From the NCBI RefSeq assembly GCF_008245225.1, contig NZ_VTAW01000003.1:1-64000 (forward strand): DNA of 64,000 nucleotides, in the 5' to 3' direction. The notes below the pieces were generated by a model. The model was not told the origin of the DNA. It ran no database searches and saw only the letters and a program-made list of their open reading frames with translations. The DNA is from Natrialba swarupiae. Lineage in GTDB: Archaea; Halobacteriota; Halobacteria; Halobacteriales; Natrialbaceae. Positions 41,489 through 58,506 of this stretch are shown piece by piece; within the stretch, counting starts at the first letter, position 1; each line of letters opens with the position of its first letter. The position numbers were made by a program, and so were the translations under genes.

Positions 41489-42682
41489 ATGTCCACATCC
41501 GTTGGGACGGCACTGATAACCGACGTCTCGGACGAAAATCCGGGTGAGCGTGCAGCGACTGAGGCGCTTGCACAGCTTCCGGGGGAGGGGGTGGACTTCT
41601 GTCAGGTCTTCTGTCCGGTCGACTACGATTTCGATCGGATCATTACGGGGATACGCAACGTTATCGGACCGAACGCGAAACTCGTCGGCTGTTCGGCGAA
41701 CGGCACGTTCACGCGCGACGTGGTCGAAGACGGAGTTGCGGTCGGTCTCGTCGCGAGCGACACGCTCTCGTTTTACACCGGTCTCGGTACCGGACTGCGT
41801 GAGAACGTCTCTCGAGCCGTCCGGGAGGCGATCGGCGATCTGCCCGAACGGGTCGACGATCATCCCTACGCCGCCGCGATTACGCTCCACGACGGCCTCA
41901 GCGGCGTCGGCGAGAAGCTCGCGTTGAGCTGTCAACAGAAACTCGGGCCCGAGGTGTCCATCGCGGGCGGCTCGGCGGCCGACAACCATCGACTCGAGGC
42001 GACGTACGTGTTCTGTGACGACGAAATCGTCGACGATGGGGTCGTCGTCGCCCTCATCGGTGCGAAACAGCGACCCGTGGTCGCGGTCGCACACGGCCAC
42101 GAACCGCTGTCAGAACCGGTCGAAGTGACACGTGCGGACGGACCGACGGTCTACGAACTCGACGGCGAGCCGGCGTTCGACGTCTGGAAGGACGCCGTCC
42201 GCGACACCGTCGCCGAGGAGTTCGACGTCGATATCGACGATCTCGACGCCGACTCGAGGCTCCTCCAGGAGATCCTCTGTGAGTTCGAGTTCGGAATCAA
42301 CCAGGGCGACCAGTACAAGATGCGCTGGCCGTGGATCGAAGACGACGAGGGCTCGATGCAGTTTACCGTCGACGTCCCCGAAGGAACGGTGGTACGGGTG
42401 ATGCACGGCCGGCCCGAGGCCCAGATCGAATCCGCCGGTGAAACGATCCGCCGTGCACTCTCGGACGCGGGCGACGTACGGATGGCCGGCGCGTTCGTTT
42501 ACGACTGTGCGTGTCGCGGAATCGTTCTCGGCGAGGAGTTCGAACGTGCCGTCGAGGAGATGGCCTCGGAGCTTTCGGTCCCGTTCGTCGGCTTCGAAAC
42601 GTACGGCGAGATCTGTATGGGTCCAGGACAGTTCAGCGGCTATCACAACACGACGACCGTCGCCCTGTTACTTCCCGAGTGA
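41489..42682 (+). CDS. FIST-domain sensory protein
   Basis: The protein has 397 residues and consists of an N-terminal FIST domain (DYDFDRIITGIRNVIGPN, LVGCSANGTFTRD, SIAGGSAADNH) and a FIST C domain (the block GAFVYDCACRGIVLGEEFERAVEEM, abridged: YDCACRGIVLGEEFE; then GFETYGEI). FIST domains are thought to bind small ligands such as amino acids. Its stop codon overlaps the start of the histidine kinase gene (TGATG), so the two are co-translated. The likely job is the input subunit for that kinase. Confidence 0.9.
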   Translation: MSTSVGTALITDVSDENPGERAATEALAQLPGEGVDFCQVFCPVDYDFDRIITGIRNVIGPNAKLVGCSANGTFTRDVVEDGVAVGLVASDTLSFYTGLGTGLRENVSRAVREAIGDLPERVDDHPYAAAITLHDGLSGVGEKLALSCQQKLGPEVSIAGGSAADNHRLEATYVFCDDEIVDDGVVVALIGAKQRPVVAVAHGHEPLSEPVEVTRADGPTVYELDGEPAFDVWKDAVRDTVAEEFDVDIDDLDADSRLLQEILCEFEFGINQGDQYKMRWPWIEDDEGSMQFTVDVPEGTVVRVMHGRPEAQIESAGETIRRALSDAGDVRMAGAFVYDCACRGIVLGEEFERAVEEMASELSVPFVGFETYGEICMGPGQFSGYHNTTTVALLLPE

Positions 42683-44316
42683 TGGACCACGACGACCTCG
42701 TTTCGACGTTCGGCGAAACCGTCGGCGTAGAGAAAGCCCAGTCGTTACTCGAGGACACACTCGACGATCTCGGCCTCGAGCAGGCGAAGTCGTACTCCAG
42801 TCACGAGGTCGCCGACATCTGTGAGACGATCGCTCGAGACACCGACGGCTACCTCGAGATCGTCGCGACCGAGATCCGCGTTCGGGAGCGAGCCCAGCGT
42901 CGTTTCGACGCGCTTATCGAGGAGCTCTCCGATCCCGTCGTGGCGGTCTCGTTTCACCAGTCGACCCCGATCGTCACCGGATACAATCCGGCGTTCGAGG
43001 CGACGTTCGGGTACGGCCAGGACGCAGTCGGGCGGTCGCTGCCGGCGTTGATCGTGCCGGCGGACGACCGCACTGACCCGCTCGACGTCTGGTTTCGGTC
43101 GGACGACGGACGTGGGACGGAACTCGATCGGCTGACCGACGACGGCGAGCGACGGACGTTTCTGTTCCAGCCGGTCGTCGTCTCGGGGTTCGGGGGTGAG
43201 ATCGAAGGCTACGGTATCTATACGGATATCACAGACGAAAAGCGTCGGGAACGAACCCTCGAGCGCCAGAACGAACAGCTCGAGCGGTTCGTCAGCGTCG
43301 TCTCCCACGACCTTCGGAATCCGCTGACCGTCGCCCAGGGAAACGTCGACCTTGCACGTCAGCTGAACGACGACCCCGAAGTCGCCACCCGCCTCGAGGA
43401 CGCAATCGACGCCCAGGAACGGATGGAACAGCTCGTCGAGGACCTGCTGGCGCTTGCCAGTCAGGGGCGGACCGTCGACGATCCTCGGTCGGTCGTCCTC
43501 GAGGACGTCGTCTCGAACGCCTGGCGCTACGTCGAGACGGCGGACGTCGAACTCGTCGAGACGTTCCCCGACGGGTTGACGATCGAGGCCGACGGCGATC
43601 GGCTCTCACAGCTATTCGAGAACCTGTTTCGCAACGCCGTCGAACACGGTTCGACGAGCCCCCAGTCGCAAACTCCCGAGGACGCCGTGGAGCACGGTTC
43701 GACGAGCCCTCGGTCGCAAACTCCCGAAGACGCCGTGGAGCACGGTTCGACGAGCCCTCGGTCGCAAACTCCCGAAGACGCCGTGGAGCACGGTTCGACG
43801 AGCCCCCAGTCGCAAACTCCCGAAGACGCCGTGGAGCACGGTTCGACGAGCCCTCGGTCGCAAACTCCCGAAGACGCCGTGGAGCACGGTTCGACGAGCC
43901 CTCGGTCGCAAACTCCCGAAGACGCCGTGGAGCACGGTTCGACGAGCCCTCGGTCGCAAACTCCCGAAGACGCCGTGGAGCACGGTTCAACGAGCCATGC
44001 CGGAGCTGACGGGTCTGCAGACGCCGTCGAACACGTGGCCGGTGACTCCACCGACGAAAGCGGCGAACGCACGGTTCACGTGGGGTGGGACGAGGGCGTC
44101 CTGTTCGTCGAGGACGACGGTCCGGGGATCCCGGCGGACGAACGCGAGAACGTCTTCGATCACGGCTACACGACGTCCGCGGACGGGACCGGCTTCGGCC
44201 TGGCTATCGTCGAGGCGATCGCGGACGCCCACGGCTGGGCGATCGACGTCGGCGAAGGGATCGACGGCGGCGCGAGGTTCGAAATTCGTGGTATCTCCGT
44301 CGGGAGTCGGCCCTGA
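42682..44316 (+). CDS. PAS histidine kinase with a repeat expansion in its ATPase domain
   Basis: This protein of 544 residues is soluble. A short helical N-terminus is followed by a PAS domain (about 75-190), the phospho-acceptor block FVSVVSHDLRNPL with His209, and HATPase motifs: N-box FRNAVEHGST at Asn318, G1 VEDDGPGIPADE, F region FDHGYTTSADGTG and G2 GTGFGLAIVEA. Directly after the N-box the sequence repeats a 16-residue unit seven times plus a partial copy (residues 318-440). That is about 120 residues inserted in the ATP-lid side of the fold. The frame stays open. It is coupled to the FIST gene upstream. Confidence 0.93.
   Translation: MDHDDLVSTFGETVGVEKAQSLLEDTLDDLGLEQAKSYSSHEVADICETIARDTDGYLEIVATEIRVRERAQRRFDALIEELSDPVVAVSFHQSTPIVTGYNPAFEATFGYGQDAVGRSLPALIVPADDRTDPLDVWFRSDDGRGTELDRLTDDGERRTFLFQPVVVSGFGGEIEGYGIYTDITDEKRRERTLERQNEQLERFVSVVSHDLRNPLTVAQGNVDLARQLNDDPEVATRLEDAIDAQERMEQLVEDLLALASQGRTVDDPRSVVLEDVVSNAWRYVETADVELVETFPDGLTIEADGDRLSQLFENLFRNAVEHGSTSPQSQTPEDAVEHGSTSPRSQTPEDAVEHGSTSPRSQTPEDAVEHGSTSPQSQTPEDAVEHGSTSPRSQTPEDAVEHGSTSPRSQTPEDAVEHGSTSPRSQTPEDAVEHGSTSHAGADGSADAVEHVAGDSTDESGERTVHVGWDEGVLFVEDDGPGIPADERENVFDHGYTTSADGTGFGLAIVEAIADAHGWAIDVGEGIDGGARFEIRGISVGSRP
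43633..43996 (+). repeat. 48-bp tandem repeat, seven units plus a partial one, in the kinase gene
   Basis: Units begin at 43633, 43681, 43729, 43777, 43825, 43873 and 43921, with a partial copy from 43969. Each encodes (N/D)AVEHGSTSP(R/Q)SQTPE, so each re-copies the kinase N-box. Most units differ only at the Arg/Gln codon, which means recent amplification. The 48-bp length keeps the frame whatever the copy number. Confidence 0.97.
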
Positions 44317-44354: not shown

Positions 44355-45647
44355 ATGGGCTGGGCCGACCGCGTCGATCAGTTGCTGTACGACGGCGAAC
44401 GCGTCAGATGCCGCCTCGAGGTCTCGACAGCAACGGTCGTCGTCACCAGCCATCGACTGCTCGCGTTCGTCGACTCGAGAGGCGGGCCGGCGTACCGATA
44501 CGTCGATCTGCCGAACGTCGGCGCGGTCGACCTCCGGCGCGAGGGACGGTTCGCCCACCTGATTCGGGCGATCGTCGCCGCGATTCTCGGGATCGGGTTG
44601 GTCCTGACGAGTGCGGCGGTGAGCTTCGTCGAGTTGGTTCCGGACCCCGACCTCGAGGGCGGCGAGTCGGACGCGCCAGCCACCCCCGCCACCGGCGTTC
44701 TGGATGCCGTCGAGTCGACGCTCGCGCTGGTGGATCTCGCAGTCGTCGCGACCGGCGTCCTGTCGATCGGGATCGCCGCCGTGTTCGCACTGTTGTACGT
44801 CAGATCTCGTTCACGCCGGCTGGTGATCGAGGTCCGCGGTGACGACGACGTCGAACTCCCCGTGACGGGAGCAGACGACGTCGGGACGGCCGTCGTCGAA
44901 CTCGAGGAGGCGATCCGACCCGAACCCTCGGTCGGTGCCCTCGGGGGGCCCACCGGTTCGGATCGCGACCGACTCGAGGGGCATCCGACGGTGGACGATC
45001 GCCACCGAACGGTCCGGGAACACGGCGACAGCCCCGTCGAACGTACTTCACAAGATCGCGGCTCGAACGAACGGAGATCGCTGGACGACAGTCCACTGGG
45101 ACGTGGTTCGCGGAGCGACGGCCCGCGGGAACGTGGCTCGCTCGAGTCGGGGGAGTCGGCGGACAGTCGTGGGCCGACGGCGGAGTTTCCTGAGTCAGCA
45201 GATCCCACCTCACTCGAGCCGGAGGTGCCCCCTATCGACGAAGCGGACTCCCGTACCGCCGGTCTCGATGACGAGGGGTCGACCGACGCCTTCGACTGGG
45301 ACCCCCTCGCGGGATCTGGCTCGGAGGAGAGGAGCGAGCCAGAGCGAACTCTCGAGACCGAACGGTGGTGGACCGACGACGAGAGAGACGGTGACGAGAG
45401 AAACCGCAACGAGGGGGATGGTGACGAAGGAGATGGTGACGAGAGAAACCGCAACGAGGGAGATGGCGACGAAAGAGACGGTGACGAGAGAAACCGCAAC
45501 GAGGGAGATGGTGGCGAAGGAGATGGTGACGAAGGTGATGGCGACGAGAGAAACCGCAATGAGGGTGGTGGCAACGGTTATGGCGACGAGAGCCACGATG
45601 ACGGAGATGGCGACAACGCTGAAGACGAGCGCGAGGAGTCAACCTAA
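44355..45647 (+). CDS. PH-like membrane protein with acidic repeat tail
   Basis: The protein has 430 residues from ATG 44355. The N-terminal 60 residues ([31 protein letters not shown], abridged: [20 protein letters not shown]) look like a bacterial-PH-type domain. Two membrane helices follow at about 66-90 and 125-150, with an outward loop between them. A second small domain ([18 protein letters not shown]) and then a long disordered region rich in Arg, Ser, Asp and Glu lead to a tail of repeated [14 protein letters not shown]. Function unknown. It follows the kinase gene by 38 bases and may be in its operon. Confidence 0.8.
45379..45606 (+). repeat. Imperfect tandem repeat encoding an acidic RNEGDGDE tail
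   Basis: Blocks related to GACGAGAGAAACCGCAACGAG and GGAGATGGTGACGAA alternate at least four times with small changes. The coded peptide is [12 protein letters not shown]-like. The region ends at the C-terminus of the membrane protein at 44355. Confidence 0.85.
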
Positions 45648-49931: not shown

Positions 49932-50672
49932 ATGCGCGCACTTCGACGCTGTGATTTCTGTGGAGCCGACGCCGTCGGGACCTTTGAGATCGTTCCGCCG
50001 GAACTCGAGCCGAGCGAGGACGAACAACGCCGCGTCGTCCTCTGTACCGACTGCCGGAACCGCCTCGAGACGCTGCTCGAACCACTCCTCGTCTACGCGG
50101 GCGCCACCCAAAACGGCGGGGAGGCCCGGAACGAACGCAACGGTGGCGAGGTAGGCAGCAACTCTCGAGACGGGATCGTACTCGAGCGTGACGACGAGAC
50201 CGGCTCCAACGTGAACGAACCGGAAGGCGACAGCGGTGGCAGTGCCGGTGGCGAACGGTCAGTGGAGTCGACGTCGGAGGCGAACGATCGAGACGAGGGG
50301 CCGTCTCCGAACGCAACCGAATCGGGCGAACGGCCGTCTCCGAACGCAACCGAATCGGGTGAACGACCGTCTCCGGACGCAGCCGAGTCCGACGAACGCG
50401 AGCCGACATCGACGACAGCGTCGAGCGAGTCGGCAGCGAACGTCGCGCAGGCGGCAACGGGAGGGTCGGACGAACGAGCGAGACCGCCACAAGGGTACGC
50501 AAAAGCGATTCGACTGCTCCGAAACCGCGAATTCCCCATGGAGCGCGAGGCCGTCGAAACACTAATCGCCGGCGCGTACGACCTCGAGTCCCACGAGACG
50601 GCGGAGATCGTCGACCACGCACTCGAGAACGACGAGTTCCTTGAGCGCGGCGAAACGCTTCACCGCTCGTAG
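49932..50672 (+). CDS. Zinc-ribbon protein with a long disordered linker
   Basis: The protein has 246 residues. The N-terminus holds a zinc site, CDFC at 7-10 and CTDC at 38-41. The C-terminal 60 residues form a helical domain (PPQGYAKAIRLLRNREFPMEREAVETLIAGAYDL, abridged: GYAKAIRLLRNREFPMERE). Between them about 125 residues are low-complexity Ser/Glu/Asn with three tandem PSPNATESGER-like units. The two ordered ends look conserved and the linker variable. A TATA-like GTTTTTACGG about 25 bases upstream implies a leaderless mRNA. Function unknown. Confidence 0.78.
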   Translation: MRALRRCDFCGADAVGTFEIVPPELEPSEDEQRRVVLCTDCRNRLETLLEPLLVYAGATQNGGEARNERNGGEVGSNSRDGIVLERDDETGSNVNEPEGDSGGSAGGERSVESTSEANDRDEGPSPNATESGERPSPNATESGERPSPDAAESDEREPTSTTASSESAANVAQAATGGSDERARPPQGYAKAIRLLRNREFPMEREAVETLIAGAYDLESHETAEIVDHALENDEFLERGETLHRS

Positions 50673-57810: not shown

Positions 57811-58506
57811 TTACGTTTCTGACTCCCCCTCGACCATTTCCTCGACTTCGTCCTCTCGAGGACGGCGGTCGACGCGCTCGTCGACGGCATCGACCTTCGC
57901 TTGGACTTCGTCGACCTGCTTTTTGACCGTTTCACCGACCGTCTCCTCGACCGTTTCACTGACTGTCTCCTCGACCGTTTCACTGACCGTCTCCTCGACC
58001 GTTTCACCGACTGTCTCTTCGACCGTTTCACTGACCGTCTCCTCGACCGTTTCACCGACCGTCTCTTCGACCGTTTCACCGACCGTCTCCTCGACCGTTT
58101 CACTGACCGTCTCCTCGACCGTTTCACCGACCGTCTCCTCGACCTGCGACTGAACGTCGCTGACCTGTTTCTCGACTGTCTCGCTGACCGTCTCCTCGAC
58201 CTGTGACTGAACGTCGCTGACTTGCTTCTCGACCGTTTCACCGACCGTCTCCTCGACTTGCGACTGAACGTCGCTGACTCGCTTTTCGACGGTCTCACCG
58301 ACCGTCTCCTCGACTGTCTGTGTCATCCAGTCCGGATCGAACCGTGCCATCTTCCAGACGACGTGGACGACGTACGACGCGAACACACCGACACCGAACG
58401 CGACACCGACGTTCGTATCGAGCGTCACGATCAGGGCGATCGAGAGGACGATCAATGCTCCATAAGCGAGGTCGACGGCCGCGTCGACGCGAACCGGATT
58501 TAACAT
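57811..58506 (-). CDS. Membrane-anchored coiled-coil repeat protein
   Basis: The protein has 231 residues. Two membrane helices (about 10-28 and 32-50) are followed by WKMARFDPDWMTQ and a long regular repeat region. The first part alternates VEETVGETVEK(Q/R)VSDVQSQ, the second repeats the octads VEETVGET and VEETVSET about ten times, and a short acidic tail ends in EGESET. The pattern gives an almost pure Val/Thr/Glu heptad-like rod of over 100 residues facing the cytoplasm or outside. Function unknown. The DNA repeats may allow length variation. Confidence 0.85.
   Translation of the reverse strand: MLNPVRVDAAVDLAYGALIVLSIALIVTLDTNVGVAFGVGVFASYVVHVVWKMARFDPDWMTQTVEETVGETVEKRVSDVQSQVEETVGETVEKQVSDVQSQVEETVSETVEKQVSDVQSQVEETVGETVEETVSETVEETVGETVEETVGETVEETVSETVEETVGETVEETVSETVEETVSETVEETVGETVKKQVDEVQAKVDAVDERVDRRPREDEVEEMVEGESET
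57925..58315 (-). repeat. 24-bp and 69-bp in-frame tandem repeats in the coiled-coil gene
   Basis: Right-hand part: three units of about 23 codons (VEETVxETVEKxVSDVQSQ). Left-hand part: about ten alternating 24-bp octads coding VEETVGET or VEETVSET. Differences are mainly GGT/AGT codon swaps and third positions. All units are multiples of three. Confidence 0.93.

Follow-up and report, generated by a model that had tools for sequence, protein, structure and literature searches.

A 48-bp palindromic unit, tandemly repeated in a haloarchaeal histidine kinase gene, is probably a small protein-coding insertion element

The window analyzed here is a 64,000-nucleotide stretch of the Natrialba swarupiae genome (contig NZ_VTAW01000003.1), and it includes a histidine kinase gene that hosts a tandem array of 48-bp units, each built around two palindromes (hp1 and hp2). 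The kinase has Pfam matches to HisKA (4e-15) and HATPase_c (1e-17) and a weak match to PAS, and it carries the N, D, and G motifs of a histidine kinase with the invariant residues N128, N132, D292-D293-G294, and G318/G320. The FIST-domain sensor gene upstream is likely its operon partner.

41489..42682, + strand: FIST-domain sensor gene, upstream of the kinase, whose start overlaps its stop codon
42682..44316, + strand: histidine kinase gene hosting the array (544 aa, PAS-HisKA-HATPase_c)
43633..43680, + strand: unit 1, the native N-box codons (NAVEH) with hp1 and hp2; translation NAVEHGSTSPQSQTPE
43681..43968, + strand: units 2-7, six in all, 48 bp each; translation DAVEHGSTSP[R/Q]SQTPE
43969..43995, + strand: partial unit 8, coding DAVEHGSTS
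43996..44034, + strand: degenerate spacer of a second type, CATGCCGGAGCTGACGGGTCTGCA, then a ninth DAVEH copy (DAVEHVAG)

An earlier note, made from the letters alone, had described a near-identical, in-frame array inside the HATPase region, and both Tandem Repeats Finder (period 48, 7.6 copies, 96% matches, 0 indels, score 670, 43634-43996) and translation of the open reading frame confirmed it. The array consists of seven full units and a partial eighth in frame at 43633-43995, with borders at 43633-43680, 43681-43728, and so on to 43921-43968, followed by the partial unit at 43969-43995; this unit number comes from a draft assembly of 99 contigs, and the 364-bp array is longer than a short read. 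In unit 1, hp1 is a perfect 7-bp palindrome (GTCGAACACGGTTCGAC, 43639-43655), whereas in units 2-7 it is chimeric (GTGGAGC/GTTCGAC) and forms five of seven pairs. Along the units the Q/R variants run Q R R Q R R R, an order suggestive of a duplication of a 144-bp block within the array.

The note's further view that the array is recent and expandable is upheld, and related kinases carry fewer units. Its remark that other haloarchaeal kinases have one or two units was correct: three other kinases of the same genome have two units of nearly identical DNA, and a tandem AVEHG pair (two copies 16-46 bases apart) was present in 64 of 394 genomes of the class, representing 33 of 86 genera, whereas the controls gave no match. 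In the own-genome paralogs C20 and C22 (among loci L001, L002, and L003), the 48-bp unit is followed by an intact palindrome, TGCAGAAC...GTTCTGCA; this second spacer type is degenerate in the window kinase and in a third paralog, C26. The window holds other coding repeats as well. An acidic in-frame tandem repeat with 15-, 45-, and 60-bp periods, unrelated in sequence to the array, lies at 45378-45622, at the C-terminus of the next downstream ORF; a 33-bp unit coding SPNATESGERP occurs three times at 50299-50398, within a 246-aa ORF; and a 231-aa ORF on the minus strand (57811-58506) contains repeats of 24 bp and 57 bp that encode VGETVEETVSETVEE. This is probably an amphipathic or coiled-coil repeat, and it follows two likely membrane helices.

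The earlier note had read the array as a repeated NAVEHGST block and as an amplified N-box. A 16-residue block is indeed repeated, but the repeats read DAVEHGST, with Asn only in the first copy and Asp, in place of the Mg-ATP-liganding residue, in every later one. The N-box helix LFENLFR precedes unit 1 only, and the invariant Asn, Glu, and His fall on unit 1 in an alignment of 28 haloarchaeal kinases. In an AlphaFold2 model, the N-box helix is unbroken (residues 119-137 of the modelled fragment) and is followed by ∼139 residues with no secondary structure and mostly pLDDT <55, while the remainder of the kinase fold is intact (mostly pLDDT 84-97, with a dip to 71). Because the later copies have Asp, lack the helix, and are predicted to be disordered, we infer that the first N-box is the one that binds Mg-ATP, and alignment and model together indicate that the array is not an amplification of the N-box as a functional motif. 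The note had put the array at the ATP-lid side; its place is outside the lid proper, after the N-box helix and before the strand that runs to the D-box. The insert would be tolerated structurally by emerging as a disordered Ser/Pro/acidic loop and probably has little effect on catalysis. The orthologous kinases of three congeners read NAIEHG, with a short loop and no array, which makes the array lineage-specific.

At the DNA level, the unit has the layout GACGCC-hp1-GAGC-hp2. The first palindrome has 7-bp arms and a 3-nt loop (GTSGARC-NNN-GYTCSAC, coding VEHGST), and the second has 6-bp arms around a conserved 10-nt loop (CCTxxx-TCGCANNCTC-xxxAGG). In hp1, the two pairs left free by the search pattern were Watson-Crick in 109 and 108 of 121 units, as compared to 51 and 59 after shuffling, and the arms were completely paired in 87 of the 121 (23 in shuffles). 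For the three free inner pairs of hp2 the values were 131, 114, and 117 of 137, as compared to 69, 51, and 57, with 39 combinations of arm states; because the shuffles ignore kinship among the sequences, all these counts overstate the number of independent events. The encoded residues track hp2 pairing (Asp occurs with Arg-Gln, Pro with Gln-Glu, and Arg with Pro-Glu or His-Glu), since changes in the hp2 arms alter the codons. G-T pairs were not favoured among hp2 mismatches (4 of 49), and the RNA of the window array was no more stable than shuffled sequences (z = +1.48), so we read the pairing as a property of the DNA, whose arms appear to be kept complementary at that level. A pseudoknot of GAGC with GCTC in the hp2 loop was considered and rejected, as the two motifs are common but their variants do not covary. 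Unit length was a multiple of three in 120 of 121 distinct units. In one kinase array (L108, G396:C44), a 2-nt insertion in hp1 frameshifts the gene, which is either a pseudogene or an assembly error.

At least 93 of the 394 halobacterial genomes matched the hp2 pattern; in a sample of the phylum, it was found in 17 of 82 Halobacteria and in none of the 312 genomes outside that class. Two pattern matches near tRNA genes (L110 and L113) were left out because they look like chance or unrelated sequence. Among 30 loci sampled from different genomes, 20 were in kinases, eight in MBL-rhodanese hydrolases, and two in other genes. Further in-frame hosts include, by Pfam, a class I Glu/Gln-tRNA synthetase, CbiE (cobalt-precorrin-7 methyltransferase), and an AMP-binding enzyme, in addition to an ornithine cyclodeaminase-family protein and a REC-PAS linker, and at least two copies (L121 and L124) are apparently intergenic. 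Examples are found in the CbiE of Natronococcus occultus, the MBL hydrolase of Halomicrobium mukohataei, and a kinase of Natrinema thermotolerans. Kinase N-boxes are nonetheless the commonest site, a bias attributable to the match between the NAVEH codons of the N-box and the insertion target.

Several of these unrelated genes also have orthologs in which the site is empty, and the difference between occupied and empty orthologs is 48 bp exactly, located at a target that codes DAVE (about GACGCCGTSGAR). All ten tabulated inserts were 48 bp long and flanked by direct repeats. Within one genus, the Glu/Gln-tRNA synthetase carries the insert in L129 and L130 and is empty in L131, L132, L134, and L135, with protein identity of up to 97%. 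CbiE is occupied in seven of 29 orthologs (species) of one genus, and a tree that includes an eighth occupied ortholog from another genus requires five or more changes, all at one codon, although the underlying alignment took in ragged upstream sequence and the tree has one long branch. The REC-PAS linker provides another occupied/empty pair (L125 and L126), and the MBL hydrolase has two separate sites, each found in both states. In L122, L123, L125, and L126, the 48-bp element alternates with a longer module that is related and also palindromic (GGAAGCGAAAACGCTTCC plus CCCTCGGTCGCTGACGCTCCCGAGG, translation GSENASEPSVADAPEDAVEH).

The target resembles GAYGCCGTSGAR, most commonly coding D/N-A-V-E, and target-like sequence similar to GACGCCGNNGAN lies on both sides of the insert as an imperfect direct repeat of 9-15 bp (7-11 of 12 bases identical). 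To regard such repeats as a target duplication is an interpretation of the sequences, and given their imperfection, homologous exchange between similar sites is possible. Where the target is of an alanine type (GCGGAG), L130 and L083 keep the right arm CTCCAC with one mismatch, whereas their relatives are fully paired, L129 through a left arm GTGGAG and L128 through a right arm CTCCGC. That arms are adjusted at the site fits template switching between them; selection on the hairpin is an alternative. The notion that the hp1 left arm represents the native copy of the target in every case was not borne out, because at several sites that arm is unlike the other direct-repeat copy yet matches its own right arm. 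When near-identical donor copies were sought in genomes with CbiE or synthetase insertions, the insertion itself was mostly the only match.

We consider it quite likely that the 48-bp unit is one copy of a small haloarchaeal palindromic element that is protein-coding and non-autonomous and is inserted in frame at D/N-A-V-E codons, and that the kinase array is a later expansion. The element would insert in frame at GAYGCCGTSGAR-like sites and leave target-like sequence on both sides, and kinases would be its main landing place by virtue of the NAVEH-coding N-box. A kinase site that began with two copies would then have grown as units recombined unequally or slipped against each other, the crossovers falling within the hp1 loop. 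Exchange within that loop between one copy with GTCGAAC/GTTCGAC and another with GTGGAGC/GCTCCAC would yield exactly the chimeric hp1 of units 2-7. Paralog C26 retains both copies in perfect form, and comparable chimeras occur in other arrays with the same spacer. We read the window array as a secondary tandem expansion. Template switching creates and repairs hairpin arms (PMC8794818), and switching between arms during replication is the mechanism most likely to have kept the arms complementary; spread itself may have occurred by microhomology-driven copying or through a hairpin-acting enzyme, and for movement, too, template switching at hairpins is the candidate that we favour. Counting against an insertion element are the imperfect direct repeats, the imperfect palindromes of the window's own units, and the fact that donor and recipient copies within a genome were not near-identical where checked.

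How such an element moves can be pictured in two ways. In one, the hairpins, in single-stranded form, are recognised by an HUH (IS200/IS605-like) enzyme or other recombinase, which then places the element at GACGCCGTSGAR; a route of this kind has been proposed for REP and PATE. The hairpin geometry with its conserved TCGCANNCTC loop, the constant 48-bp unit, the specific target, and the patchy presence among related genomes would all be accounted for. However, we saw no terminal inverted repeats beyond hairpin length and no copies in phage records or viral contigs (searched with a narrow viral pattern), and IS605-type elements and Haloquadratum PATEs do not duplicate their target (PMC3119063), in contrast to the direct repeats on both sides of the insert here; we regard such transposition as a real possibility, though not a probable one. 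In the other, the element is a genetic parasite that needs no transposase: replication template switching at GACGCCGTSGAR microhomology would alone account both for the spread of this coding palindrome and for the perfection of its hairpins, with kinase N-boxes as both reservoir and breeding ground. This purest form we put forward tentatively and with some doubt.

Explanations that dispense with an insertion element fare less well. If the hairpins acted in mRNA, through pausing, stability, or regulation, the strong arm covariation would follow from compensatory changes, but the mismatches show no preference for G-U, the window array folds no better than its shuffles, and the hosts are functionally unrelated and apparently include intergenic sites; selected RNA structure is therefore improbable. 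The earlier note's proposal, that the number of 16-residue units could tune kinase activity, draws on the in-frame position of the array in the ATPase region and on expansion in other kinases as well. The palindromic unit is also found in frame in unrelated proteins, making a kinase-specific function an unlikely reason for its existence, and an adaptive repeat of this kind has little to recommend it when the same peptide occurs in unrelated enzymes, the later copies are without Asn and predicted to be disordered, the congeners have no array, and residue changes are slaved to DNA pairing. That the expanded copy number is an assembly artefact might be suspected of a draft genome with an array beyond short-read length; it is very improbable, because the units bear distinct variants (Q/R; GAG/GAA), both ends are unique, and arrays of several units occur in independent genomes.

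The element offers a clean and dense natural data set, with dozens of genera and with occupied and empty sites in close relatives. These data bear on a question that has stood open since the Rickettsia elements, namely how a non-autonomous coding palindrome can get into a protein and leave it unbroken. In enzymes, the tRNA synthetase among them, the choice of amino acid visibly yields to base pairing. Repeated N-boxes in haloarchaeal kinases, like the insertions in CbiE or MBL hydrolase, should not be read as functional motifs. Because Haloferax is genetically tractable, the mechanism of spread can be tested.

The haloarchaeal family appears to be undescribed in the open literature searched, which held no paper on in-frame palindromic elements in haloarchaea or on this family, its target, or its arm covariation (most subscription papers lay outside the search), and neither repeats nor insertions are mentioned in an archaeal two-component census. 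Its kind, by comparison, is known from in-frame protein-coding palindromic elements of Rickettsia (RPE), Wolbachia, and Methanocaldococcus jannaschii (PMC10969869, PMC2996958, PMC3733652). With these it shares palindromic DNA, in-frame insertion in unrelated genes, and a conserved peptide (PMC10969869, PMC2996958): the unit is palindromic, as in RPE-like elements, and the listed coding copies encode a STSPxSQxxxD-like peptide in one frame. RPEs are ∼150 bp long and form ten families, whereas the element here is 48 bp long; it further differs in its one defined DAVE-codon target, the direct repeats on either side, the covariation of its two hairpins, its tandem arrays, and its kinase N-box hot spot.

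PARCELs are likewise tandem, palindromic, protein-coding units of patchy spread (PMC2996958), but they are 75 nt long (25 aa, amphipathic), many lie in membrane or surface proteins of mollicutes and others, and that study reported none in archaea (PMC2996958), whereas the 48-bp unit encodes a disordered peptide and interrupts unrelated globular enzymes of other families at one target. REP/RAYT (PMC3733652) and the haloarchaeal PATE and SMR of Haloquadratum (PMC3119063) are also short, palindromic, and multicopy. REPs, however, are mostly intergenic with GTAG/CGTC tags (PMC3733652), whereas the haloarchaeal element is mostly within genes; in PATEs the palindromes lie near the ends and the target is not duplicated (PMC3119063). 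MITEs are marked by terminal inverted repeats that match a resident transposon and by a constant target duplication; the direct repeats around the 48-bp element are of varying quality. Finally, coding palindromes linked to template switching (PMC6649704, PMC8794818, PMC8604942) similarly keep inverted repeats in coding DNA, but those are resident sequences, whereas the haloarchaeal element is a dispersed, target-specific insert.
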